Source of the DNA: Pseudobacter ginsenosidimutans
GTDB taxonomy: Bacteria > Bacteroidota > Bacteroidia > Chitinophagales > Chitinophagaceae
Assembly: GCF_007970185.1 (NCBI RefSeq)
Contig: NZ_CP042431.1
Location: 3,844,001-3,908,000, forward strand
DNA: 64,000 nt
Direction of reading: 5' to 3'
Positions 4,422 to 20,807 of this stretch are shown here, piece after piece. Numbering within the stretch: position 1 is the first letter of the stretch; every line of letters starts with the position of its first letter. Below the pieces are notes generated by a model. That model saw nothing but the letters and a program-made list of their open reading frames with translations. It was not told the DNA's origin and did no database searches. The translations under genes were made by a program, and so were the position numbers.

Positions 4422-5834
4422 ATGATCTATCAACACCTTACTCAGAAACAGCAGGTACGGATACTGCCTCAACAGATCCAGTTGCTGAACCTGTTTCATC
4501 TGAATACGTTGGAGCTGGAACATCGCATACAGCAGGAACTGGAAGAAAATCCCCTGCTGGAGGAAGCACCCGCAGATGATAACAGCCTCAGAGAAGAAAG
4601 CGAAGTTATACAGGATTTTGCAGACTGGGATGAATTTGGTTACGATGATATCCCGGACTACAGGACCGAGTATGCCAATTATTTTACAGGTGAAGCCATT
4701 CCTGACCGGCCTATTGCGCAGGTGGCTGATTTTCGCGAGCACCTGAAAGAGCAATGCAGGCTGCTGCTGATGGAAGAAAAGGATTTTCAGCAGGTCTGCT
4801 ACCTGATCGATTCTCTGAACGAGAACGGCATGCTGGACCAGGAGCTCAGCTCCCTGGCGGAAGACATGAGTTTTAAGTACGGCGAATGGATCGAGGCGCC
4901 GCAACTGGAGCGTTTGCTCAAAGTGATCCAAACACTTGATCCTGCCGGAGTGGGAGCCCGCGATATCCGCGAATGCCTGCTGCTGCAACTGGAACGAAAG
5001 AACACACACCGTCCGGATGTAGCGGCCGCTTTCAAGCTGGTGCATGATCATTTCAATGATCTGAAGAACCGTCAGCTCGACAAGATCATGGAGAGCATAG
5101 GACTGGAAGAAGATGAATTACGGATCGTGCTGGAACTGATCGCGGCATTGCCTTTGCAACCTATTATGGCAGCAACAGAGGAATCCGGTAACAGGAATTA
5201 TATCGTTCCTGATTTCGTGATCGCAGTGGAAGGTGATACCATCGATGTGAGCCTTTCGCGCCAGCGTTCCTCTTCGCTCCATATCAGTCACAGCTGGATG
5301 GAGAACGTAAAGAACCAGTGTGCAAAGGATGATAAGGCGGCAGGACAATACCTCAAGAGTAAGCTGCAGGCCGCAGAATGGTTCATTTCGGCTATCCAGC
5401 AACGTGAAAGCACCATGCTCCGCGTGATGCGCACCATCGTGAAATGGCAATATGAATATTTTAAGGAAGGTGATCCGCTGATGATGAAACCAATGATCCT
5501 GAAGAATATCGCCAGGGAAGTGGGCGTGGATATTTCAACCGTATCCCGCATCACCAGCAACAAATATGCAGCAACGCCTTTCGGTAATATTTTGCTGAAA
5601 GACCTCTTCTCGGAAGGACTGGCCAACGAACAGGGAGAAGTAGTGAGCAACCGGATCATCCAGCACGCACTGGAAGAAGCGATTGCTGCGGAAGACAAGA
5701 AGAGCCCTTTCACCGATCATCAACTGGTGGTGATCCTTGCAAAGAACGGTTACAAGATCGCGAGAAGAACAGTGGCCAAATACCGTGAACTGCTGAGGAT
5801 ACCTACTGCGCAGATGCGCGCCGTTTGGGGATGA
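4422..5834 (+). CDS. rpoN: RNA polymerase sigma-54 factor
   Basis: Sigma-54 (RpoN), 470 residues, directs RNA polymerase to -24/-12 promoters that open only with an AAA+ activator. The N-terminal region I is Gln/Leu-rich (QQVRILPQQIQLLNLFHLNTLELEHRI is its start, residues 10-36), an acidic region II follows (NPLLEEAPADDNS onward), then the core-binding domain. The C-terminal RpoN box is the canonical ARRTVAKYRE at about residues 450-459. Length is typical. A sigma-54 activator gene follows 61 bp downstream on the same strand, so factor and activator are probably expressed together. The 190 bp upstream, shared with the divergent kinase, presumably hold both promoters; I see no clear consensus there. 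Confidence 0.97.
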   Translation: MIYQHLTQKQQVRILPQQIQLLNLFHLNTLELEHRIQQELEENPLLEEAPADDNSLREESEVIQDFADWDEFGYDDIPDYRTEYANYFTGEAIPDRPIAQVADFREHLKEQCRLLLMEEKDFQQVCYLIDSLNENGMLDQELSSLAEDMSFKYGEWIEAPQLERLLKVIQTLDPAGVGARDIRECLLLQLERKNTHRPDVAAAFKLVHDHFNDLKNRQLDKIMESIGLEEDELRIVLELIAALPLQPIMAATEESGNRNYIVPDFVIAVEGDTIDVSLSRQRSSSLHISHSWMENVKNQCAKDDKAAGQYLKSKLQAAEWFISAIQQRESTMLRVMRTIVKWQYEYFKEGDPLMMKPMILKNIAREVGVDISTVSRITSNKYAATPFGNILLKDLFSEGLANEQGEVVSNRIIQHALEEAIAAEDKKSPFTDHQLVVILAKNGYKIARRTVAKYRELLRIPTAQMRAVWG

Positions 5835-5895
5835 TCAGCATAATAACCTTATCAATCGATTCAACGTACATTTATACCATAAAAACCTGCCAGCT

Positions 5896-7365
5896 ATGCC
5901 AAAAGTCTTAGTCATTGATGATGATCGTGATATATGTTTCCTGATGAATAAGTTCCTGACCAAGCATGGTTATGAGACCGTGGAATCCTATTCTGCCAAA
6001 AAAGCCCTTGAGCTGCTGGAAGAGGTGAAGGATATAGACATTGTGCTGTGTGATTACCGGATGGAAGGAATGGATGGAAAGACCATGCTGCTGAAGATCA
6101 AGGAAAAATATCCGTCGATGCCCGTGATCATCATTACAGGCTATAATGATCTCAAAACTGCTGTGGATGTGATGAAGCTTGGCGCGTACGATTATGTGAC
6201 CAAGCCGCTGTTCCCGGAAGAGATCCTCAATACCATCCAGTCCGCCCTGCAGCAGGCCGGTACTGCTCCTGCAGCACCCCCTACCAACGGCGTGCACGAT
6301 GATGTAAAAAAAGAAAAGAAGAAAACGAATGGCAATAACGGCGATTATATTTTCGGTAACAGTCCTGTTTTCCAGCATCTGATAGACCAGATCTCACTGG
6401 TAGGGCCAACCGATTACAGTGTGATCATCTACGGAGAGAGCGGAAGTGGCAAGGAAGCCATTGCACAGGAGATCCATAAGAAGAGCAAACGCGCTGCCTT
6501 TCCCTTTGTGGCCATCGATTGCGGCGCATTAAGCAGGGAGCTGGCCGGTAGTGAACTGTTCGGTCATGAAAAAGGTTCTTTCACCGGCGCTATCAACCAG
6601 AAGCCCGGAAGCTTTGAACTGGCCAACGGAGGCACTATCTTCCTGGATGAGATTGCCAACCTGAGCTATGATATCCAGGTGAGCCTTCTGCGCGTGATTC
6701 AGGAACGGAAGATGAGAAGAGTGGGAGGTACAAAGGATATCCCGCTGGACGTGCGCATTATCATCGCCAGTAATGAAAAGCTCTGGGATGCGGCACAGAA
6801 AGGAAAGTTCAGGGAAGATCTTTTCCACCGGTTCAATGAATTCACCATCGAGCTGCCGCCATTGCGCCAGCGCAAGGATGATATCATGGTGTTCGCCCGT
6901 CATTTCCTGGATAAAGCGAATGAAGGATTGCAGAAAAATGTAAAAGGATTTTCGCCTGAAGTGGAAGAAATTTTCAGGAATTATGTATGGCATGGGAACC
7001 TTAGAGAGCTCCGCAACGTAGTTAAAAGAGCAGCCCTGCTCACCGATGGTGATTTTATCGAGGTGCGCAGCCTGCCTTTCGAGATCAGCAATTACAAGAA
7101 ATTGTTGTTCGAGCATAACAATGAGCAATATGCGGAAGCTGCACAGGTAGCCCCGCCCGTGGTGGTGGAAGAACAAAGGCCGCTACGCCGCGCACCCTTC
7201 GAGAACAGTCTCAAGGAAGCCAGCATCGACCTGGAATATGAACTGATCCTGAAAGCTCTGAAGGAAACCAATTTCAACAAGAGCAAAGCCGCCAAACTTT
7301 TGAATATAGACCGGAAAACGCTGTACAATAAGATCAAACTATATCAGGAATTAAATAATCGTTAG
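5896..7365 (+). CDS. Sigma-54-dependent response regulator, NtrC family
   Basis: A 489-residue activator of sigma-54 promoters. Residues 1-120 are a receiver domain (phospho-acceptor Asp53 in CDYRMEG; the conserved Lys lies in VTKPLF). Residues about 155-385 are the AAA+ domain with Walker A GESGSGKE, the sigma-54-contact loop GSFTGA (a common variant of GAFTGA) and Walker B FLDEIA. Residues about 440-489 are a Fis-type helix-turn-helix (NKSKAAKLLNIDRKTLYNKI). Between rpoN (61 bp upstream) and two soluble kinases (3 and 15 bp gaps downstream), it is very likely the output of that kinase pair. Its targets are not visible; I found no convincing GG-N10-GC promoter in the adjacent intergenic DNA. 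Confidence 0.95.
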   Translation: MPKVLVIDDDRDICFLMNKFLTKHGYETVESYSAKKALELLEEVKDIDIVLCDYRMEGMDGKTMLLKIKEKYPSMPVIIITGYNDLKTAVDVMKLGAYDYVTKPLFPEEILNTIQSALQQAGTAPAAPPTNGVHDDVKKEKKKTNGNNGDYIFGNSPVFQHLIDQISLVGPTDYSVIIYGESGSGKEAIAQEIHKKSKRAAFPFVAIDCGALSRELAGSELFGHEKGSFTGAINQKPGSFELANGGTIFLDEIANLSYDIQVSLLRVIQERKMRRVGGTKDIPLDVRIIIASNEKLWDAAQKGKFREDLFHRFNEFTIELPPLRQRKDDIMVFARHFLDKANEGLQKNVKGFSPEVEEIFRNYVWHGNLRELRNVVKRAALLTDGDFIEVRSLPFEISNYKKLLFEHNNEQYAEAAQVAPPVVVEEQRPLRRAPFENSLKEASIDLEYELILKALKETNFNKSKAAKLLNIDRKTLYNKIKLYQELNNR

Positions 7366-7368
7366 CGG

Positions 7369-8994
7369 ATGAGACGTGAAGAAGCCAATAACAACATCTC
7401 ATATCTGAAAATGGTGACGAATGATAACGAAGAAGGAAAGAATTCCGTGAACCCTGTTGAAGAGGTGAAAAAAGTAAAAGAACTGTACAATGATGTGGAA
7501 GGACTTTTACTCTTCGGTACCTGGCAATGGGATATTCAAACGGATAAAGTCACCTGGTCGGATGGCATGTTCCGGATCATGGGATATGATCAGGAAACAG
7601 CCAGCAATGAGGTAACCGATGATTTCTACCTTGCCCACCTTGAGCCGGGAGATGCAAGGCAGTTCCGGGAGATACGCGCTGCGGCCATTGCAGACAAAAC
7701 TCCTTTCGAATACACTTATCATGTGATCACGCACGATAAGCGTGAGCGTGTGATCACCACCAAGATGAAATTCGAATACGATGAAGCTGGTAACGCAATA
7801 AAAGGGATCGGCATCAACCGCGATGTAACTGAGAAAACACAGCTGCTCCGCGATCTGATGCACTATAAGAAAATGGTGGAACAGAAAGAGGAATTCCTCA
7901 ATCTGGGTACCTGGGAACTGTCGCTCGATACACAACAGATGGTGATGTCGGACGGGATGAGCAGGCTGCTCGGCTACTCCGATGGAATGAGCGGAGCAGG
8001 AATGGACCTCTTCGAATTCTTCCGGTCACATCTTTCCTCGGAAGACGTAAAGAAGACCAATGAAGCCATTCATGAGATCATCGAAAACGGCGAGACCTAT
8101 GTGCGGCAATCATCTATCTTCACTACAGACGGGCAATCCAAAACCATCGAGTCTTTCGGTAAAGTGCAGCTGGATGCACACGGAAAAGCCGTGAAGATAT
8201 TTGGTATCACACATGATGTTACCAAGCTCAAGGAATACGAACAGAAACTCGAGATAAAAGTGGACGAGCTCAACCGCTCCAACCACGAACTGGAAGAGTT
8301 TGCATACGTGGCTTCGCATGACCTGCAGGAGCCACTGCGCAAGATCAGCACATTCGGGGAAAGGCTTCGCAACCGCTGTGGCGACCAGCTTTCAGAGGAA
8401 GGCACCGTTTACCTGAACCGCATGCTGGCTTCTGCCGAGAACATGCGCGTCCTGATAGACAATCTGCTGGACTTCTCCCGCGTTACGCGGATGCAGCATC
8501 CATTTGTGAAAACGGATATCAAAACACTTGTTCAGCAGGTGGTAGATGAGCTAGATCTGAGCATCGAGGATTCGCATGCTTTCATCGATATACAACCAAT
8601 GCCGGACATTGAAGTGAATCCCGTGCAGATAAAACAATTGTTCCGCAACCTGCTTACCAATGCGCTCAAATTCCAGCGCCCCGGTGTGCCGCTGCGTGTC
8701 AGCATCAACAGCAATAAACTGAGCAGGGAGGAAAAAGAAAAAATGAAACTCCGTTCTGCAGGTAACTATTATAAATTTGTGGTGTCAGACAATGGCATCG
8801 GCTTCGAAGAAGTGTATGCAGAAAGGATCTTCCAGCTCTTCCAGCGATTGCATGGAAAAGCCGAATATCCCGGATCAGGCATTGGACTGGCTATCTGCAA
8901 AAGGATTGCAGACAACCATGCAGGCATGATCTCTGCCACCGGCGCTCCTGACAAGGGAGCTGCTTTTACCATCATCCTGCCCGAATCACAATAA
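7369..8994 (+). CDS. Soluble PAS-PAS sensor histidine kinase
   Basis: A 541-residue cytoplasmic kinase. Two PAS domains (about residues 45-160 and 175-290, each containing GTWxWxxxTxxxxxSDGM-like starts and ending in a GITHDVT-type segment) are followed by a short coiled coil, HisKA with the acceptor His in ASHDLQEPLRKI (near residue 315), and a HATPase domain (NALKFQ, DNGIGFEE, GIGLAICKR). No membrane segment is present. Its start overlaps almost directly with the upstream regulator gene (3 bp gap), so translational coupling is likely. An alternative ATG at 7411 would remove 14 residues. Probable cognate regulator: the NtrC-type protein upstream (inference from adjacency). Confidence 0.92.
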   Translation: MRREEANNNISYLKMVTNDNEEGKNSVNPVEEVKKVKELYNDVEGLLLFGTWQWDIQTDKVTWSDGMFRIMGYDQETASNEVTDDFYLAHLEPGDARQFREIRAAAIADKTPFEYTYHVITHDKRERVITTKMKFEYDEAGNAIKGIGINRDVTEKTQLLRDLMHYKKMVEQKEEFLNLGTWELSLDTQQMVMSDGMSRLLGYSDGMSGAGMDLFEFFRSHLSSEDVKKTNEAIHEIIENGETYVRQSSIFTTDGQSKTIESFGKVQLDAHGKAVKIFGITHDVTKLKEYEQKLEIKVDELNRSNHELEEFAYVASHDLQEPLRKISTFGERLRNRCGDQLSEEGTVYLNRMLASAENMRVLIDNLLDFSRVTRMQHPFVKTDIKTLVQQVVDELDLSIEDSHAFIDIQPMPDIEVNPVQIKQLFRNLLTNALKFQRPGVPLRVSINSNKLSREEKEKMKLRSAGNYYKFVVSDNGIGFEEVYAERIFQLFQRLHGKAEYPGSGIGLAICKRIADNHAGMISATGAPDKGAAFTIILPESQ

Positions 8995-9009
8995 ACCCCG
9001 GTCTTATCC

Positions 9010-10458
9010 ATGCTCATTTCCACTGAACCCATACGTATCCTGATCATAGACGATGATGAAGATGATTTTTTTATCACCAGCACACTGGTGAAAGAGATCA
9101 ACGGGAATTTCAAGGTGGACTGGTGCTACAATTACCAACAGGCGATGGACCATATCTGCCATTACAGATATGATCTCTACTTCATAGATTATTATCTCGG
9201 CGCGCGCACAGGCCTCGATCTTTTGAAAGAGGCGCTGCTGCGCAATTGCGAAGCGCCGCTCATTCTTCTCACCGGCAAAGGCAATCACAAGGTAGACATG
9301 GAAGCCATGCTGGCCGGAGCAGCCGACTACCTCGTCAAGAGCGAACTCAATGCAGAAAAACTGGAACGCTGTATCCGCTACTCGCTTGCGAATGCACGGT
9401 CCATGAAAGCGCTTCGCGACAATGAGCTGAAATACCGTAATATCTTCGAGAAATCTAAAGACGCTATATTCCTTGCAGACACTGCGCTGCAATTCCTTAC
9501 CGTTAATCAGGCCACCAACCAGCTATTCAATTATACATCGGAGGAACTGGCCAGCCTCACGCTTTATGATCTCATGCCCAACAAACAGGCTGCTGAATAC
9601 CTGGCCCTGCTGTTGAAGGAAAAAGGAGAAGTGGAAGACCTGGAGCTTGACCTGCTCAACAGTGAAGAAGAAGAACTGCATTGCATTTTCTCCGCTACTT
9701 CCGTTGAACGGCCCGATGGCTCCTTCTATATGCAGGGCATCCTGCACGATATCACCAGTCTCCGTAAGGCAGAAAAGAACCTGGTGATGAGTGAGAAGCT
9801 GGCCGCAACCGGCCGTCTGGCGCGCACACTTGCCCATGAGATCAGGAACCCGCTCACGAATATCCATTTATCGCTTGACCATCTCCGTCATGATGGCCTC
9901 ACAGAGGAACAACTCAGCTACTACCAGATCATCCTCCGCAACACCAAACGAATCGGCGCCATCATCTCCGAATTACTGGATACGGCAAGGCCCACGGACA
10001 TCATCCTGCGCAAAGTGCCATTACAGGATATCATGGACGAAAGCATCACCGCTGCCATGGACCGCATCATGCTGAAACAGATCAAGACCAGTATCAGGTA
10101 CCCCGATGATATCGTGGAAGTGATGGCGGACAAAGAGAAGCTGAAGATCGCCTTCCTGAATATCATCATCAATGCCGTGGAGGCGATGACTGAAGGGGAA
10201 GGAGAGCTGGAGATCAACCTCAGCAGCCAGCCACAGCACTATGAAGTGCGGATCACAGACAATGGCTGTGGCATCTCTCCTGAAAACCTGCAGCGCCTTT
10301 TTGAGCCTTATTTTACTTCCAAACGCAATGGCCTCGGCCTGGGGCTGGCAGCCACCCTCAATATCCTGCAGGCGCACCAGGCAGGCGTGGACGTTCATTC
10401 CACACCCGGCAGCGGCACCATGTTTGTACTTTCTTTCCGTAAGGAAAAAATTGAGTAA
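9010..10458 (+). CDS. REC-PAS hybrid sensor histidine kinase (NtrB-like core)
   Basis: A 482-residue soluble protein with an N-terminal receiver domain (acid pocket IIDDDEDD, phospho-acceptor Asp in FIDYYLG near residue 60, conserved Lys in YLVKS), a PAS domain (about 140-250), HisKA with acceptor His in AHEIRNPLTNI (near residue 273) and a HATPase domain (NAVEAM, DNGCGI, LGLGLA). The AHEIRNPL acceptor and the NAVEAM N box are typical of NtrB-type kinases that pair with NtrC-type sigma-54 activators (family knowledge), which supports a link with the regulator at 5896. An input receiver before the kinase lets it take phosphate signals from another kinase, possibly the PAS-PAS kinase 15 bp upstream. 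The ku gene begins 50 bp downstream. Confidence 0.92.
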   Translation: MLISTEPIRILIIDDDEDDFFITSTLVKEINGNFKVDWCYNYQQAMDHICHYRYDLYFIDYYLGARTGLDLLKEALLRNCEAPLILLTGKGNHKVDMEAMLAGAADYLVKSELNAEKLERCIRYSLANARSMKALRDNELKYRNIFEKSKDAIFLADTALQFLTVNQATNQLFNYTSEELASLTLYDLMPNKQAAEYLALLLKEKGEVEDLELDLLNSEEEELHCIFSATSVERPDGSFYMQGILHDITSLRKAEKNLVMSEKLAATGRLARTLAHEIRNPLTNIHLSLDHLRHDGLTEEQLSYYQIILRNTKRIGAIISELLDTARPTDIILRKVPLQDIMDESITAAMDRIMLKQIKTSIRYPDDIVEVMADKEKLKIAFLNIIINAVEAMTEGEGELEINLSSQPQHYEVRITDNGCGISPENLQRLFEPYFTSKRNGLGLGLAATLNILQAHQAGVDVHSTPGSGTMFVLSFRKEKIE

Positions 10459-10508
10459 ATTACTATACCCCCCAGGCCCGTACCGTAACTCATCTAAAAA
10501 CTACCGGT

Positions 10509-11291
10509 ATGCGTGCAATTTGGTCGGGCGCCATCGGCTTCGGGCTGGTGAACATTCCCGTAAAACTCTACAGCGCTGTCCAGGAAAGCTCTCTGGACCT
10601 GGACATGCTCGATAAGAAAGATCATGCCAATATCAAGTTCCAGCGCATCAACGAAAAAAGTGGAAAAGTGGTCCAGTGGGCCAATATCGTGAAAGCCTAT
10701 AATCTCGACGGGCGCTATGTTGTGCTTGATGATAAGGATTTCGAAAAGGCCATGCCCGAAAAAACAAAGACCATCTCCATTTCCACTTTTGCCGAAGAAT
10801 CCGAGATCGACAGCATGTACTGGGAAACGCCTTATTACATGGAGCCGGACAAATCCGGTGCACGCGCATACGCGCTGCTCTGGGCAGCCCTCAATAAAAG
10901 TGGAAAAGTAGGACTGGGTTCCTTTGTGCTGCGCACCAAAGAAACGATCTGCGTGGTGAAGGCGGAAGATGGGGTGCTGGTGGTGCAAAGGCTTCGTTTC
11001 GAAGAAGAGATCCGGGATCACTCAGAGTTGAATATCCCTGACCTGACTGCGAAATCAGTAAAGCCGGGTGAGCTGAAAATGGCCATGAGCCTGATAGAGC
11101 AGCTATCCGGCCCATTCGATATCTCCGAGTTCAAAGACACTTACTCTGAAAAGCTGATGAAACTGATCAAGGCCAAAGCGAAAGGAAAGAAGATCACCAC
11201 ACCGGCACTCAAAGTGGTGCACTCACGCGCAAGCGATCTGATGAGCCAGTTGAAAGCAAGCCTTGAAACGAAAAAGAAACGCGCTTCCTGA
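10509..11291 (+). CDS. ku: Ku protein (bacterial NHEJ DNA-end binding)
   Basis: Bacterial Ku, 260 residues, forms a homodimeric ring that threads onto double-strand break ends and recruits LigD. The start RAIWSGAIGFGLVNIPVKLY is the signature N-terminus of the family. The Ku core covers roughly residues 1-230, and a short basic tail (KASLETKKKRAS) closes the protein. Length is normal. The gene is 50 bp after the kinase at 9010 and 24 bp before the LigD phosphoesterase gene, all on the plus strand. It heads a four-gene NHEJ operon and may be read through from the rpoN/two-component genes. No clear promoter is visible in the 50 bp gap. Confidence 0.96.
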   Translation: MRAIWSGAIGFGLVNIPVKLYSAVQESSLDLDMLDKKDHANIKFQRINEKSGKVVQWANIVKAYNLDGRYVVLDDKDFEKAMPEKTKTISISTFAEESEIDSMYWETPYYMEPDKSGARAYALLWAALNKSGKVGLGSFVLRTKETICVVKAEDGVLVVQRLRFEEEIRDHSELNIPDLTAKSVKPGELKMAMSLIEQLSGPFDISEFKDTYSEKLMKLIKAKAKGKKITTPALKVVHSRASDLMSQLKASLETKKKRAS

Positions 11292-11315
11292 CAACATTGA
11301 TCAAAATGGAATATC

Positions 11316-12197
11316 ATGCTCAAAGATTATAAGAAGAAAAGGAATTTCAGGAATACGCCCGAACCTGCCGGTAGTAAGCGATCTTCGGGTGATCATCTCC
11401 GTTTTGTAGTGCAACGCCATGATGCCACACGCCTGCACTATGATTTCAGGCTGGAACTGGATGGCGTGCTCAAAAGCTGGGCAGTACCGAAAGGACCGAG
11501 TATGAACCCCGCAGACAAACGGCTGGCCGTGCAGGTGGAAGACCACCCGGTGGATTATATCGATTTTGCCGGTGTGATCCCCGAAGGCAATTATGGCGCA
11601 GGGGTGGTGCAGGTTTGGGACCATGGGAATTATATTCCCGTGAATGCGGAAATAGAACCGATCTCCGAAAAGGAAGCACTGAAATGGTTGAAGAATGGTG
11701 AGATCAAATTCGTGATCCAGGGCAGCAAGCTCAGTGGTGAATTCGTGTTGGTGAGATTGAAACGCGATGAAAAGAACTGGCTTCTCATCAAACACAATGA
11801 TGAGTACGCAGTGAAAACGAAATACGATGCGGAAAAGCTGATCAAGGGAAAATCGAAAAAGGAAATTTTTGCAAAGGGCGCAAAAGGAGAGAAGGTATGG
11901 GAGAGTAACAGAAGCGCAAAGACCACATCCGGCAGGGCAACAGTTTCCCGGAAGGCTGGTTCCGCAAAAAAAACAGCCAAAGCAAAGAAGCCGGTATCAG
12001 GTGTTGCTTCAAAGACAGTGGGCAGTAAGCCCCGGATCTCCTCGGCAAAACCTGCTTCAAGAACTACAAAAGGTTCAAAGACTGTTTCAGTTGTGAAGTC
12101 TGCTGGCCGGAAAACAACGGCCACTGCTGCCAAAGCCTCTTCAAAGTCCGCCCGCAAACCTGTTTCAAAAAAAGCATATGGCACAAAAAAAGCCTGA
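11316..12197 (+). CDS. LigD 3'-phosphoesterase domain protein with H1-like basic tail
   Basis: This 293-residue protein holds the phosphoesterase (PE) part of LigD, which trims 3'-phosphates and ribonucleotides at break ends. The PE fold spans about residues 10-165, with the signature HDATRLHYDFRLE (residues about 35-47) and a second motif VIPEGNYGAG. From about residue 195 the protein turns into a low-complexity Lys/Ala/Ser/Thr tail resembling histone H1 or a LigD interdomain linker. Its stop lies 20 bp inside the ligase gene, in a different frame. Two seven-adenine runs (12167-12173 and 12185-12191) sit in the overlap. Removal of one A in either run would join this frame to the ligase frame with no stop between, so the protein may be one half of a broken or slippage-joined PE-LIG fusion. 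Confidence 0.93.
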   Translation: MLKDYKKKRNFRNTPEPAGSKRSSGDHLRFVVQRHDATRLHYDFRLELDGVLKSWAVPKGPSMNPADKRLAVQVEDHPVDYIDFAGVIPEGNYGAGVVQVWDHGNYIPVNAEIEPISEKEALKWLKNGEIKFVIQGSKLSGEFVLVRLKRDEKNWLLIKHNDEYAVKTKYDAEKLIKGKSKKEIFAKGAKGEKVWESNRSAKTTSGRATVSRKAGSAKKTAKAKKPVSGVASKTVGSKPRISSAKPASRTTKGSKTVSVVKSAGRKTTATAAKASSKSARKPVSKKAYGTKKA

Positions 12198-13398
12198 TAA
12201 GAAAAGTGCAGCAAAGAAAGCGGCCCCTGCAAAAAAAACAGCAGGAGCCGGCAAGCCTGCCGGGAAAGCTTCATCAAAAAAAGCAAGGTCCGGCAAACCT
12301 GTGCCAAAGAATACTGCCACTAAAAAAACGGCTTCCGGTAAAGCTGCTGCAGCAAAAGCATCATTGCCGAAAACCACCGTTCCCAAAGCAGCACCGGTTA
12401 CAGGTGCTATAAAAACTACAACGAAAAAACGGCCTCCTTCTAGAGTCTTCGGCAATGAAGGCCGCAAATACGAGGAATATATTGAGCCGATGCTGGCCAG
12501 TCTTGAAGATCATCCATTCGATAATGATGAATGGATCTTCGAGATGAAATGGGACGGCTATCGCGCCATTGCAGAATGGAAAAAGAAAAAACTGAAATTG
12601 TATTCCCGCAACGGCCTTTCCTTCGTTCAAAAATATCCTCCGGTTGCTGAAGCCATCACAAAGATCAAACATGATTGCGTGCTGGACGGCGAGATCGTTG
12701 TGCTGAACGAAGATGGGCGGCCACGTTTCCAGATGCTCCAGGAATATGAGCAGGACCCCCGCTATCCCATTCACTACTACGTGTTCGATCTGCTCTTCCT
12801 CAATGGCAAAGATGTGCGCGAATTACCATTGCTGAGCCGCAAGGAATTGCTGAAAAAATTATTGAGCTCCTGCAAAGGTGATGTGATTCGCTATTCAGAT
12901 CATGTAATTGGAAGCGGAAAGAAATTTTTCCATCATGTAAAGAAGCTTGACTTTGAAGGCATGATGGCCAAAAAATCAGACAGTGAATACTATTCAGGTA
13001 TCCGTACCCGTGAGTGGCTGAAAATAAAACACCACAATAACCAGGAAGCCGTGATTGCAGGATTCACTGCACCAAGGCGAAGCCGAAAATATTTCGGTGC
13101 ATTGATCCTCGGCGAGTTCAAAGGCCGCAGGCTGCAGTACATCGGGCATACCGGAACGGGTTTTACACACGATAAGCTGAAAGAATTATGGGACCTCATG
13201 CAGCCCCTGATGACGGCCCAGTCGCCATTTGCAGAAAAGATAAAAGTGAACGCACCCGTCTCCTGGATCAGGCCGGAACTTGTTTGTGAAGTAAAGTTCA
13301 CGGAACAGACCAATGAAGGCATTCTCCGTCACCCTGTTTTCCTTGGATTACGGGAAGACAAAGCCGCCACAGCAGTAACGAAAAACAATGACAGATGA
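12178..13398 (+). CDS. ligD: ATP-dependent DNA ligase (LigD ligase domain) with basic N-terminal linker
   Basis: The ligase module of LigD, 406 residues; it seals nicks during end joining by ATP-dependent adenylation. Residues 1-80 are a Lys/Ala/Pro-rich low-complexity segment that continues the style of the preceding protein's tail. The adenylation domain follows, with motif I EMKWDGYR (catalytic Lys near residue 123), DGEIVVL (motif III) and motifs IV/V EGMMAKK and EWLKIK. The OB-fold ends near EGILRHPVFLGLR. The gene overlaps the PE gene by 20 bp and the polymerase gene by 4 bp (ATGA), which implies translational coupling. In most bacteria this domain is part of one long LigD; here it stands alone, but gene order keeps the PE-LIG-POL order found in Pseudomonas-type LigD. 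Confidence 0.94.
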   Translation: MAQKKPDKKSAAKKAAPAKKTAGAGKPAGKASSKKARSGKPVPKNTATKKTASGKAAAAKASLPKTTVPKAAPVTGAIKTTTKKRPPSRVFGNEGRKYEEYIEPMLASLEDHPFDNDEWIFEMKWDGYRAIAEWKKKKLKLYSRNGLSFVQKYPPVAEAITKIKHDCVLDGEIVVLNEDGRPRFQMLQEYEQDPRYPIHYYVFDLLFLNGKDVRELPLLSRKELLKKLLSSCKGDVIRYSDHVIGSGKKFFHHVKKLDFEGMMAKKSDSEYYSGIRTREWLKIKHHNNQEAVIAGFTAPRRSRKYFGALILGEFKGRRLQYIGHTGTGFTHDKLKELWDLMQPLMTAQSPFAEKIKVNAPVSWIRPELVCEVKFTEQTNEGILRHPVFLGLREDKAATAVTKNNDR

Positions 13399-14318
13399 AA
13401 GCAGCAGAAAAAACTGAAGATATCGTACAGGTAGACCGTCACCAGCTGACTATCACCAACGTTAACAAGATCTATTTTCCAAAAGACAAGATCACCAAGG
13501 GAGATGTGATCGCCTATTATGATATGATGGCGCCGGTGATACTTCCTTATCTGAAAGACAGGCCGCTATCGCTCAAACGCAACCCCAATGGGATCACCGA
13601 TAAGGGGTTCTATCATAAGGACGCCGGCGAGAACGCACCAAAATATGTAAAAGTGTACCCTGAATTTTCTCCTTCGTCCAACAAAACAGTGGACTATATC
13701 GTGTGCAACAATAAAGCAACACTGATCTATCTCGCCAATCTCGGTTGCATCGAAATGAATCCCTGGAATTCCACCACACGCAGCGCAGACAAGCCCTCCT
13801 ATATGATTATCGATATCGATCCGTCACCCAAAAATACTTTCGACCAGGTGATCACCGTTGCCCAGGCTGTGCAGGAAGTGATGACCAATGCAGGGGCCAT
13901 CGCTTATCCCAAAACCTCGGGGGCAACGGGTATTCACGTATACATGCCCCTGGGTAACAAATACGATTATGAGATCGTGCGTGAGTTCGGCAGGATCGTG
14001 GCTACAATGGTGAATGAGATGCTGCCCGGCATGACCAGCATCGAACGTTCGCTTAAGAAAAGAGGGAATAAGATCTATATCGATTTTCTGCAAAATTCAA
14101 AAGGACAAACCCTGGCATCGGCTTACAGCCTGCGTCCGCGCGATGGCGCCACGGTATCCACTCCTTTACTATGGAAAGAAGTGAAGGCTGGTCTTCATCC
14201 TTCGCAATTCACGATTCACAATATTCAGAAGAGGGTAAAAAAACTCGGTGATCTATTCTTTATGGTGTTGAAAGAAGGCAACAATCTGAAGACCTGCCTC
14301 AAAAATCTGGGTTACTAA
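13395..14318 (+). CDS. LigD polymerase domain protein (primase-polymerase)
   Basis: The polymerase (POL) module of LigD, an archaeo-eukaryotic primase-like enzyme that fills gaps with ribo- or deoxynucleotides before ligation. The 307 residues cover the domain alone. Visible motifs are the metal-binding DID of IIDIDPS (near residue 140), SGATGIHVYMP (near 175) and the RPRDGATVSTPL segment near the end. The ATG overlaps the ligase stop (ATGA). Its own stop overlaps the stop of the convergent small membrane gene, leaving no room for a terminator between them. It is stand-alone rather than fused to a ligase. With Ku and the two other LigD parts in the same operon, a complete NHEJ toolkit is present. 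Confidence 0.95.
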   Translation: MKAAEKTEDIVQVDRHQLTITNVNKIYFPKDKITKGDVIAYYDMMAPVILPYLKDRPLSLKRNPNGITDKGFYHKDAGENAPKYVKVYPEFSPSSNKTVDYIVCNNKATLIYLANLGCIEMNPWNSTTRSADKPSYMIIDIDPSPKNTFDQVITVAQAVQEVMTNAGAIAYPKTSGATGIHVYMPLGNKYDYEIVREFGRIVATMVNEMLPGMTSIERSLKKRGNKIYIDFLQNSKGQTLASAYSLRPRDGATVSTPLLWKEVKAGLHPSQFTIHNIQKRVKKLGDLFFMVLKEGNNLKTCLKNLGY

Positions 14319-19612: not shown

Positions 19613-19708
19613 TTTTGCCCTTTTTTGTATACACATAAAAAAGTCAGACCACGTATGGTCTGACTGACTTCAAAAACCCTAAACCTATAGTACAGAGCAT
19701 TAATGCAT

Positions 19709-20359
19709 TTACTCTTCTTCTTCCTGTCCGGCTTCGTAGTTCACGTTGTTCTCTGCAATGCTGGTCAGTAATTCATCGCAGGCTTTCTCTTCTTCCAGCG
19801 TCTGGTGCAGGAGGGAGGCCACTTCTTCCATGCCGAAAGTGCGTGCCAGTTTGGTGAGGCAACCATAGCTGGCGATCTCATAGTGTTCCACTTTTTGAGA
19901 AGCCATGATGATGCCTACGTCGCGGGTAAGTGAACCGGCTTCTGTTTCTTCTACGATAGAATCAGCTTCCTTTTTCAGTCCATCCATCGCTTCACATTTC
20001 TTCGATTGTGCGCGTTTGCCCAGTATTTCAAAAACCTGTTCCAGTCTTTCAACATGCGTTTCTGTTTCTGCATGGTGTTCCATAATGGCATTCCTCAATT
20101 CTTCTGTGGTAGCGGCTTTGGCCATTTTGGGCAATGCTTTGGTCAATAATTTCTCTGCATAGTAAATGTCTTTCAGCTGGTCCGTGAATAGTTTGTCCAG
20201 CATTTCATCCATGCCGCCTTCGACTACATCTGACTGTGAGCGACCCCTGGAAGCTGCGCCGGGCCTGGATTTTCCGTTCTGTGATGATTTGTTTGCTGTG
20301 GTTTGTTTAGCTCTTCCATTGGAAGATGTTGTACTGCGTGAGTTCTTTTTCTTTTCCAT
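19709..20359 (-). CDS. DUF892 ferritin-like protein (YciE/YciF family)
   Basis: A 216-residue protein with a basic Ser/Lys/Gly-rich N-terminus (residues 1-55) and a DUF892 ferritin-like domain (about 58-210). The DUF892 signature is clear: LFTDQLKDIYYAEKLLTKAL, later HHAETETHVERLEQVF and KVEHYEIASYG, with Glu and His at metal-ligand positions. Relatives in enterobacteria (YciE, YciF) are induced by osmotic and general stress; some bind iron or manganese. The frame is open upstream to 20467, but that extension runs through a terminator hairpin, so I start at the ATG at 20359. A TPP riboswitch and terminator precede it on the same strand, which is unexpected for such a gene. Confidence 0.88.
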   Translation of the reverse strand: MEKKKNSRSTTSSNGRAKQTTANKSSQNGKSRPGAASRGRSQSDVVEGGMDEMLDKLFTDQLKDIYYAEKLLTKALPKMAKAATTEELRNAIMEHHAETETHVERLEQVFEILGKRAQSKKCEAMDGLKKEADSIVEETEAGSLTRDVGIIMASQKVEHYEIASYGCLTKLARTFGMEEVASLLHQTLEEEKACDELLTSIAENNVNYEAGQEEEE

Positions 20360-20432
20360 GACTGCTATTTGAAAGATGTGAATAATAAGAAGTAATGTAG
20401 TAAGGATAAAAACAATGCCAGCAGGATGCAAG

Positions 20433-20458
20433 AAAAAAGCCTCCGCGTTAACGGAGGC
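20433..20458 (-). terminator. Intrinsic terminator following the TPP riboswitch
   Basis: On the minus strand a perfect seven-pair stem GCCTCCG / CGGAGGC with loop TTAACG (20439-20458) runs straight into six Ts (20433-20438). It begins 12 nt after the 3' arm of the riboswitch closing stem and 74 nt before the DUF892 ATG. That is the place expected for a TPP-controlled transcription terminator. Confidence 0.85.
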
Positions 20459-20470
20459 TCTGTACATATT

Positions 20471-20570
20471 TTCTCTTTGTGTTTTTCCTTCGCTGGCATT
20501 ATCCAGATCAGGTTCTCAGGTTTATTCTCAGATCACTTCTTTCGTTGTGAACACCCTGTATTAAAGAGAA
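20471..20570 (-). promoter_or_regulatory. TPP riboswitch (thi-box aptamer), no thiamine gene adjacent
   Basis: Read on the minus strand, the region contains the hallmark TPP aptamer blocks in order: AGGGTGTTC near the 5' side, TCTGAGAATAAACC, then GAACCTGATCTGG and ATAATGCCAGCGAAGGAAA. An eight-pair outer stem (TTCTCTTT with AAAGAGAA, 20563-20570 with 20471-20478) closes it. These blocks are the most conserved part of the family (established knowledge). The next gene on this strand is the DUF892 ferritin-like gene, after an intrinsic terminator. No thiC, thiamine transporter or other thiamine gene lies in the window, so the switch is an orphan here or controls a stress gene. Confidence 0.93.
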
Positions 20571-20807
20571 ATTATGCTTGTATGAAGATTACATAAAATC
20601 CAGTACCAGGGCTGGTTGCGGACTTAAATCGATGCTATTGTTTATGTTACGTTTTTAGTGGATTGTTGACTGTAGATTAATGTCTACGAACAGGTGTGCA
20701 TAACTGTCACAATGACTTTTCTGCGGATGGATTTATCAGCGATGATTGAACTGGTTCATTGAGTTCTTCCCCATTTGTAAACAGGTATTCCACATAAAAA
20801 CAGCTTT

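Follow-up and report, generated by a model that had tools for sequence, protein, structure and literature searches.

The window, by which we mean the whole stretch of DNA analysed here, comprises 64,000 nucleotides of Pseudobacter ginsenosidimutans. On its minus strand a thiamine pyrophosphate (TPP) aptamer is closed by a long stem, P1, and directly followed by an intrinsic terminator, behind which lie a gene for a DUF892 ferritin-like protein, an iron permease gene (PF04120) and a topoisomerase IB gene (PF01028). An earlier note on this DNA had described the aptamer, its closing stem and terminator, the order of the three genes and the lack of a thiamine gene among them, and on all of these points the covariance, folding and Pfam analyses agree with it. 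The features on which the following argument draws are listed here in window coordinates:

4422..5834, plus strand: second gene for RpoN (sigma-54; PF00309, PF04963, PF04552), one of two RpoN matches in the genome (G000)
5896..7365, plus strand: gene for an NtrC-type sigma-54 activator with a receiver domain (PF00072, PF00158, PF02954)
19709..20359, minus strand: DUF892 ferritin-like gene (PF05974, E 2e-54)
20405..20420, minus strand: another promoter-like box, TGGCATTGTTTTTATC, downstream of the terminator; 61 nt separate it from the DUF892 ATG
20433..20461, minus strand: intrinsic terminator predicted by folding, a GCCTCCG/CGGAGGC hairpin and a T run (about 20438-20433)
20433..20581, minus strand: proposed free-standing RNA of about 149 nt, from the predicted start to the end of the terminator T run
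20465..20478, minus strand: 3' strand of P1, AAAGAGAAAATATG, partner of the 5' strand
20468..20568, minus strand: TPP aptamer, matching RF00059 over model positions 1-105 of 105
20563..20576, minus strand: 5' strand of P1, CATAATTTCTCTTT, forming 13 pairs with the 3' strand with one A-A mismatch
20594..20608, minus strand: promoter-like box, TGGTACTGGATTTTA, with the sigma-54 -24/-12 spacing (TGGYAY-N5-TT); the likely start site is the A at about 20581

The aptamer shows the P1-P5 architecture and aligns with the RF00059 model over its full length, scoring 54.2 bits (E 4.4e-10 in a 371-base search); the inner part of P1, beside the junction, is unpaired in this alignment. As the gathering score of RF00059 is 54.3, the window aptamer is 0.1 bit short of it, and for this reason an Rfam scan of the window with gathering cut-offs returned zero matches. 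Regarding the expectation of the earlier note that an Rfam covariance search would recover the aptamer, the full-length match thus stands and the gathering score was missed. We read the shortfall as a matter of threshold, since 13 of 19 scanned loci of other genera pass. The element is also larger than first reported, the outer part of P1 extending to 20576 and 20465. Folding of positions 20425-20580 gave -45.7 kcal/mol (z -4.5), with none of 200 shuffles as stable, and the last 40 bases at the 3' end of the unit, folded alone, gave -18.0 kcal/mol. R1, a covariance model of the whole unit built from five sequences with the window copy among them, matches the window over its full length (20435-20577, minus strand). 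A Phe_leader match across P1 and the terminator reached 39 bits against a cut-off of 55 and was taken as chance. Four TPP matches are found in the genome in total; the other three, judged by recognition of the sequences, presumably precede thiamine synthesis genes, an outer-membrane receptor and a PnuT-like transporter.

Folding separates the window terminator from the terminators of ordinary TPP riboswitches. For all five ordinary thi-operon switches compared from the genus, folding pairs the terminator arm with an upstream strand (0.89-0.92), namely the P1/P4 strand shortly before the hairpin completes, which is the classical antiterminator. For the 5' arm of the window terminator, by contrast, the chance of pairing upstream is 0.00, and it shows no pairing with the aptamer; the corresponding values are 0.02 in G004 and 0.27 in G002. 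At the lengths tried, the lowest-energy folds of the five genus copies are all free of such antiterminator pairing. The same pair-probability test, which is folding only and covers 52 of the 57 free-standing copies described below, with G001 and G003 outside it, gave a median of 0.23 and values of at least 0.5 in 10 copies. Uncoupling of the terminator from the aptamer is hence predicted clearly for the window and as a mere tendency for the family. The position of the terminator is more uniform: by script, it directly follows the aptamer in 53 of the 57 free-standing copies and in 55 of all 66 matches tested, but in none of the 40 ordinary TPPs, five of which have a terminator further on. For one locus, L018, the script picked another, weak hairpin.

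Within the genus, the unit is kept in five of six genomes. It is missing from G005, in which the large protein encoded near the unit has a weak and distant match only (E 3.0e-5, 19% identity). All five copies share a divergent upstream Pyrid_ox-like gene, and in the regions compared no intact downstream gene is common to them. DUF892, permease and topoisomerase IB lie downstream in G000 and G002, topoisomerase IB is missing in G001 and G004, and in G003 DUF892 is gone, leaving a short ORF that resembles the ends of the permease, with topoisomerase IB after it. G003 encodes a DUF892 homologue of 64% identity elsewhere (C1:1475621), near none of its three TPP matches. From P1 onward the G000 unit agrees with that of G003 at 100 of 129 aligned positions, upstream of it at only 148 of 266. 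The RF00059 scores of the four other copies, 51.1 (G003), 53.1 (G001), 53.3 (G002) and 54.2 bits (G004), are all under the gathering score. An exact unit pattern, scanned against contigs in a search that may exclude records very near the window genome, matched in Pseudoflavitalea rhizosphaerae, Pseudoflavitalea sp. G-6-1-2 and one Chitinophagaceae bin only.

Several further observations concern these loci. An open frame starts at an ATG in the 3' strand of P1 (20467-20357, minus strand). In G000 and G002 it reads across the terminator and joins DUF892 in the same frame, in G004 and G003 it ends shortly upstream of the following ORF, and in G001 it has only 5 codons before a stop. A terminator-like hairpin, GTCAGACCA..TGGTCTGACTTTTTTAT, lies between DUF892 and the iron permease (19635-19668, minus strand); it is kept in G000, G001, G002 and G004 and altered in G003. 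DUF892 of G004 (L016) is split where an A run is one base short, either through a real frameshift or through an assembly error. Four TPP matches of the genus lie directly before the ATG of a PnuT-like transporter (L004, L038, L039, L040) and have a stretch inserted in the aptamer; as they score only 39.6-46.7 bits, default scans would miss such switches. Five ordinary TPP switches (L001, L027, L028, L031, L032) have a terminator followed by a methyltransferase-like gene, which in G005 is in turn followed by what we take, by sequence recognition, to be a ThiE-like gene.

The unit is by no means confined to the genus. When R1 was run on 394 genomes from the family, it matched somewhere in 234, and many of these matches are ordinary TPP switches. 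From the matches listed, we read 60 regions outside the genus with higher-scoring full-length matches and sorted their 61 matches by eye; scripts applied afterwards upheld this sorting. Nine matches were set aside as ordinary, and at least 52 free-standing copies were retained, from 47 genomes of 26 other genera; together with the genus this makes at least 57 copies in 52 genomes and 27 genera. Aptamer, long covarying P1 and directly adjoining terminator are the anatomy common to the 52 copies. The 3 kb downstream of them hold 169 ORFs, not one of which is a homologue (E 1e-5) of the 42 proteins behind ordinary TPP switches, while such a homologue accompanies eight of the nine set-aside matches (all except L211). 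Relatives were where the earlier note would have looked for thiamine genes behind the unit, and by this measure 0 of 52 copies have one. The comparison throughout is with 40 ordinary switches, of which 25 come from the 30 loci L041-L070 and 15 from the 16 of the genus, short loci being excluded. Thirty of the highest-scoring TPPs outside the genus presumably precede a TonB receptor (13), ThiC (10), ThiM (5) or ThiD (1), one contig ending early; these names, like PnuT and ThiE, are assumed from recognition of the sequences rather than from a family scan.

To assess the conservation of the structure, 55 of the 57 copies were aligned to the model, with 94.5% of cells pairing. Of 37 pairs, 33 change on both sides, and these include every pair of the long P1 (13) and of the terminator (7). 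The covariation score is 0.557; shuffles gave 0.177 and sliding no more than 0.151. Fitting the alignment to the structure favours these figures. All 55 copies contain CUGAGA, and 50 of them the P4/L5 pattern. The P1 sequence itself differs in other genera. Two genomes hold several units: G230 (L158) has two free-standing ones 5 kb apart (5808-5932 and 10963-11085), near DUF892- and DUF2383-like genes, and G057 has three. A second model, applied to 395 genomes from the class, recovered a few units from other families that have both box and terminator (L218, L219, L221, L222), along with a similar unit without the box (L217); the other 24 of the 29 class loci read look ordinary. In L221 and L222 an ORF on the same strand lies further downstream.

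The promoter-like box is located outside the region from which R1 was built. The six-base box [TC]GG[CT]A[CT] lies 18-61 nt upstream of 50 of the 57 free-standing copies, as compared with one of 40 ordinary switches (L001, at 59 nt) and two of the nine set-aside TPPs; with N5-TT included, the counts are 44 of 57, 0 of 40 and one of nine. TAnnTTTG, the usual Bacteroidota promoter element according to the excerpts of the work cited (PMC7366714), is distributed the other way, occurring in one of 57 free-standing, 16 of 40 ordinary and six of nine set-aside cases. The window box reads TGGTAC at the -24 position. A logo of 50 aligned boxes has GG in 50 of 50, A in 50 of 50 and C in 49 of 50, with TT at +11/+12 in 49 and 45 boxes at fixed spacing and an A at +27, just ahead of P1, in 38. 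A TGGCAY -24 element with a -12 element at fixed spacing, as is characteristic of sigma-54 sites, is thus found across the 50 boxes; the spacing is that of sigma-54 sites, and the excerpted Salmonella sigma-54 table includes TGGCATGATTTTTTCATT at glnH (PMC3844500). The usual GC at -12 is mostly missing from the 50 boxes, which read TT-N-N-A (+13: T30 A10 G8 C2; +14: C20 T12 A11 G7), and we therefore call the box sigma-54-like only. Seven of the 57 free-standing copies lack it. Counts beyond the window come from extracted regions around the loci; in the 64 kb window the degenerate pattern matches 15 times, mostly away from gene starts, so that single boxes, in particular those of Ku and Hsp20 mentioned below, can be chance. 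Pairing of a CUGGCAYU outside the aptamer with P5, considered by eye, was dropped, the promoter-like box being the better explanation.

RpoN is encoded in each of the 52 genomes searched, whether or not they have the unit, and its presence consequently does not discriminate; the NtrC-type activator was identified in the window itself. The second RpoN gene lies 11-24 kb from the unit in G000, G001, G003, G004 and G122 only, the G122 unit (L184) being one without a box. Elsewhere it is far off or on another contig, and in G391, G303 and G058 it is more than 280 kb away on the same contig. The window has a plus-strand run at 4422-14318 that comprises the second rpoN, the NtrC-type activator, two PAS histidine kinases, Ku, a LigD phosphoesterase and an ATP-dependent ligase, as well as a further ORF that we take, by recognition, to be LigD-like. 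This run looks like a sigma-54-linked DNA-repair and stress island.

The box also connects the unit to stress genes. The box before DUF892 is kept in G004 and G002 and missing in G001, so that three of the four genus genomes with DUF892 at this place have it, and further boxes in the window precede DUF2383 (16879, minus strand), Hsp20 (16967, plus strand) and Ku (10413, plus strand). Across the family, 10 of 27 DUF892 genes have a box nearby, whereas among control genes it is 5 of 99 (p 6e-5); the 27 come from 30 loci, and their stretches vary in length while those of the controls are 370 bases. Neighbours of 30 units (118 of 120 proteins, long ones left out) include DUF892 (5), KGG (4), DUF4142 (3), Usp (3), mechanosensitive channels (3) and DUF2383 (2), as compared with fewer than two of each in 113 of 116 proteins, again without the long ones, from 30 other stretches of the same genomes. 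No thiamine family is among the 25 listed of the 111 Pfam families in these 118 neighbour proteins. Adjacent TPP and DUF892 pairs outside the genus were, by eye, not found among the matches listed. The DUF892 gene is likely a separate member of the same regulon as the RNA.

Box, predicted start, aptamer and terminator, recurring across 27 genera while the neighbours change, are at the level of sequence the anatomy of an independent RNA gene, and we are confident that the element would be a free-standing transcription unit rather than a leader of DUF892. Judging by the conserved box, transcription would begin a few bases ahead of P1, with RNA polymerase probably relying on sigma-54 (RpoN) and an NtrC-type activator. 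A complete TPP aptamer with a long P1 would then be transcribed, and sequence and folding point to a stop at the hairpin directly after it. As the aptamer core is conserved, predicted binding of TPP is very likely. As folding gives no pairing between aptamer and terminator for the window, the effect of TPP would fall on the shape, stability or pairing surface of the completed RNA and not on termination. The product would be a small regulatory RNA made under stress alongside DUF892, DUF2383 and other stress genes and acting on its targets in a TPP-dependent manner. For TPP-dependent action in trans taken by itself we see an even chance, and a trans-acting stress RNA is our best guess; the statement as a whole, of a free-standing, probably sigma-54-driven, predicted TPP-binding RNA of a stress regulon with TPP-dependent action, we regard as moderately probable. 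The earlier note had left three readings side by side, and it is the last of them, a role of the terminated RNA itself, that the sequence comparison supports.

The RNA might instead serve as a store or buffer of TPP or as a protein-binding decoy, in the manner of Rli55 and EutX, rather than act by base pairing. We looked for a target or seed and found none: across the copies no common unpaired stretch is evident by eye outside the aptamer core, as such a role would allow, and a pyrimidine-rich P1 was dropped as a seed candidate, the bias not being significant (mean 0.67 vs 0.61, p 0.11). A store would need a very high copy number. Although there are precedents for decoys in the excerpts of the work cited (PMC8383071), we consider this reading unlikely.

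The first reading of the earlier note, that TPP governs the stress gene, corresponds to an ordinary cis riboswitch recruited to a stress operon and terminating transcription of DUF892 and the following genes prematurely. It would account for aptamer, terminator and gene standing in line, with DUF892 sequence after the unit in four of five genus copies, for the DUF892 gene of G001 having no box of its own, and for the possible antiterminator pairing in 10 of 52 copies. It fits poorly with a window terminator for which no antiterminator is predicted, with the box after the terminator in G000, G002 and G004, with G003, where the unit outlives DUF892, and with the different or oppositely oriented neighbours of the family copies. 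On these grounds, that is, the gene's own box, G003, the uncoupled terminator and the neighbours, DUF892 was rejected as the main regulated gene, G001 excepted: there the DUF892 box is missing and the T run of the terminator is weak, so that read-through into DUF892 stays possible. For the locus at large, a cis switch is quite improbable.

To much the same small degree we credit a ligand-tuned attenuator for whatever gene lies downstream, which would do without a classical antiterminator and work via the kinetics of P1 or via a ribosome at the ATG in P1. An ATG at the end of P1 is found in five of five genus copies, with the frame open through the terminator in G000, G002, G003 and G004, and the nearest downstream ORF is on the same strand in 30 of 52 copies, some within 35 nt. 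However, that ORF is on the opposite strand in the other 22, for which a leader model gives no explanation, and the P1 sequence is not the same in other genera. A leader peptide from this ATG was dropped because the frame is so short in G001 and because the differences between G000 and G004 are, by eye, mostly amino-acid changing.

A disused riboswitch of a thiamine gene that was lost or moved, the remaining reading of the earlier note, is very improbable: the stretch after the aptamer does resemble by eye the corresponding stretch of the pnuT-type switch of the genus, a switch likewise followed by an ATG, but the spread over 27 genera with mostly different neighbours, the conserved core with compensatory changes over 55 copies, and the conserved box and terminator make decay unlikely.

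Compared with known systems, the free-standing unit shares the aptamer fold and conserved core with the TPP riboswitch (THI element, RF00059) and is unlike ordinary TPP riboswitches in having no thiamine gene behind it, a long outer P1, another promoter type and, in the window, a terminator without a predicted antiterminator. GlmY and GlmZ are not known to us to bind TPP. They are nevertheless akin to the unit as small RNA genes with sigma-54 sites, glmY and glmZ being entered in the excerpted Salmonella sigma-54 table with TGGCAC -24/-12 sites (PMC3844500); they differ in the TGC at -12, which is missing from most boxes here. The anatomy of the unit, known here from sequence alone, fits an SreA- or SroA-like trans RNA. 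SroA of Salmonella and E. coli is described, in the excerpts of the sources, as a short THI-box RNA of about 100 nt for which a role in trans, apart from its riboswitch function, was proposed (PMC3511261), and an sroA mutant as having a small fitness phenotype (PMC2698986); unlike the units here, which have no thiamine gene behind them, it sits in the leader of the tbpA/thiBPQ operon. Other riboswitch RNAs reported to act in trans are SreA and SreB (SAM) and Rli55 and EutX (cobalamin), of which SreA is, unlike our unit, the terminated leader of a downstream gene, while Rli55 and EutX sequester EutV (excerpts of PMC8383071). In the free-standing unit we recognised, to our knowledge of such parts, nothing of the EutV-binding type. 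For Bacteroides thetaiotaomicron, the excerpted source gives three TPP riboswitches, leaders of thiamine- or transport-related genes (PMC7366714). A handful of high-scoring aptamers without a cognate gene behind them were noted by Barrick and Breaker (2007; PMC2258182, in excerpt), who suggested that these may be either antisense RNAs acting in trans or recently orphaned; no anatomy was given for these, whereas here a conserved family has a promoter-like box and a terminator. Among the papers listed on orphan and stand-alone riboswitches, TPP riboswitches and Bacteroidetes RpoN, we recognised no published description of a free-standing TPP-aptamer RNA family.

The aptamer of a riboswitch is ordinarily taken to be the leader of the gene that follows, and annotation that gives free-standing TPP matches to that gene would mislead. 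With the free-standing units described here, the question of Barrick and Breaker, whether such an aptamer is a trans RNA or a recent orphan, can be put to a direct test. The units also suggest that a separate regulatory RNA may have taken over the TPP-sensing part. Tentatively, and with slightly less than even confidence, we propose a Bacteroidota RNA family in which a TPP aptamer would be the sensory half of a trans-acting stress RNA, made by sigma-54 with an NtrC-type activator and ending at an uncoupled terminator, so that the level of the cofactor would be read after synthesis and not during transcription. If this is true, cofactor sensing would have moved into a separate regulatory RNA, with a very widespread aptamer class standing alone, and thiamine status would be linked to the sigma-54 stress response.
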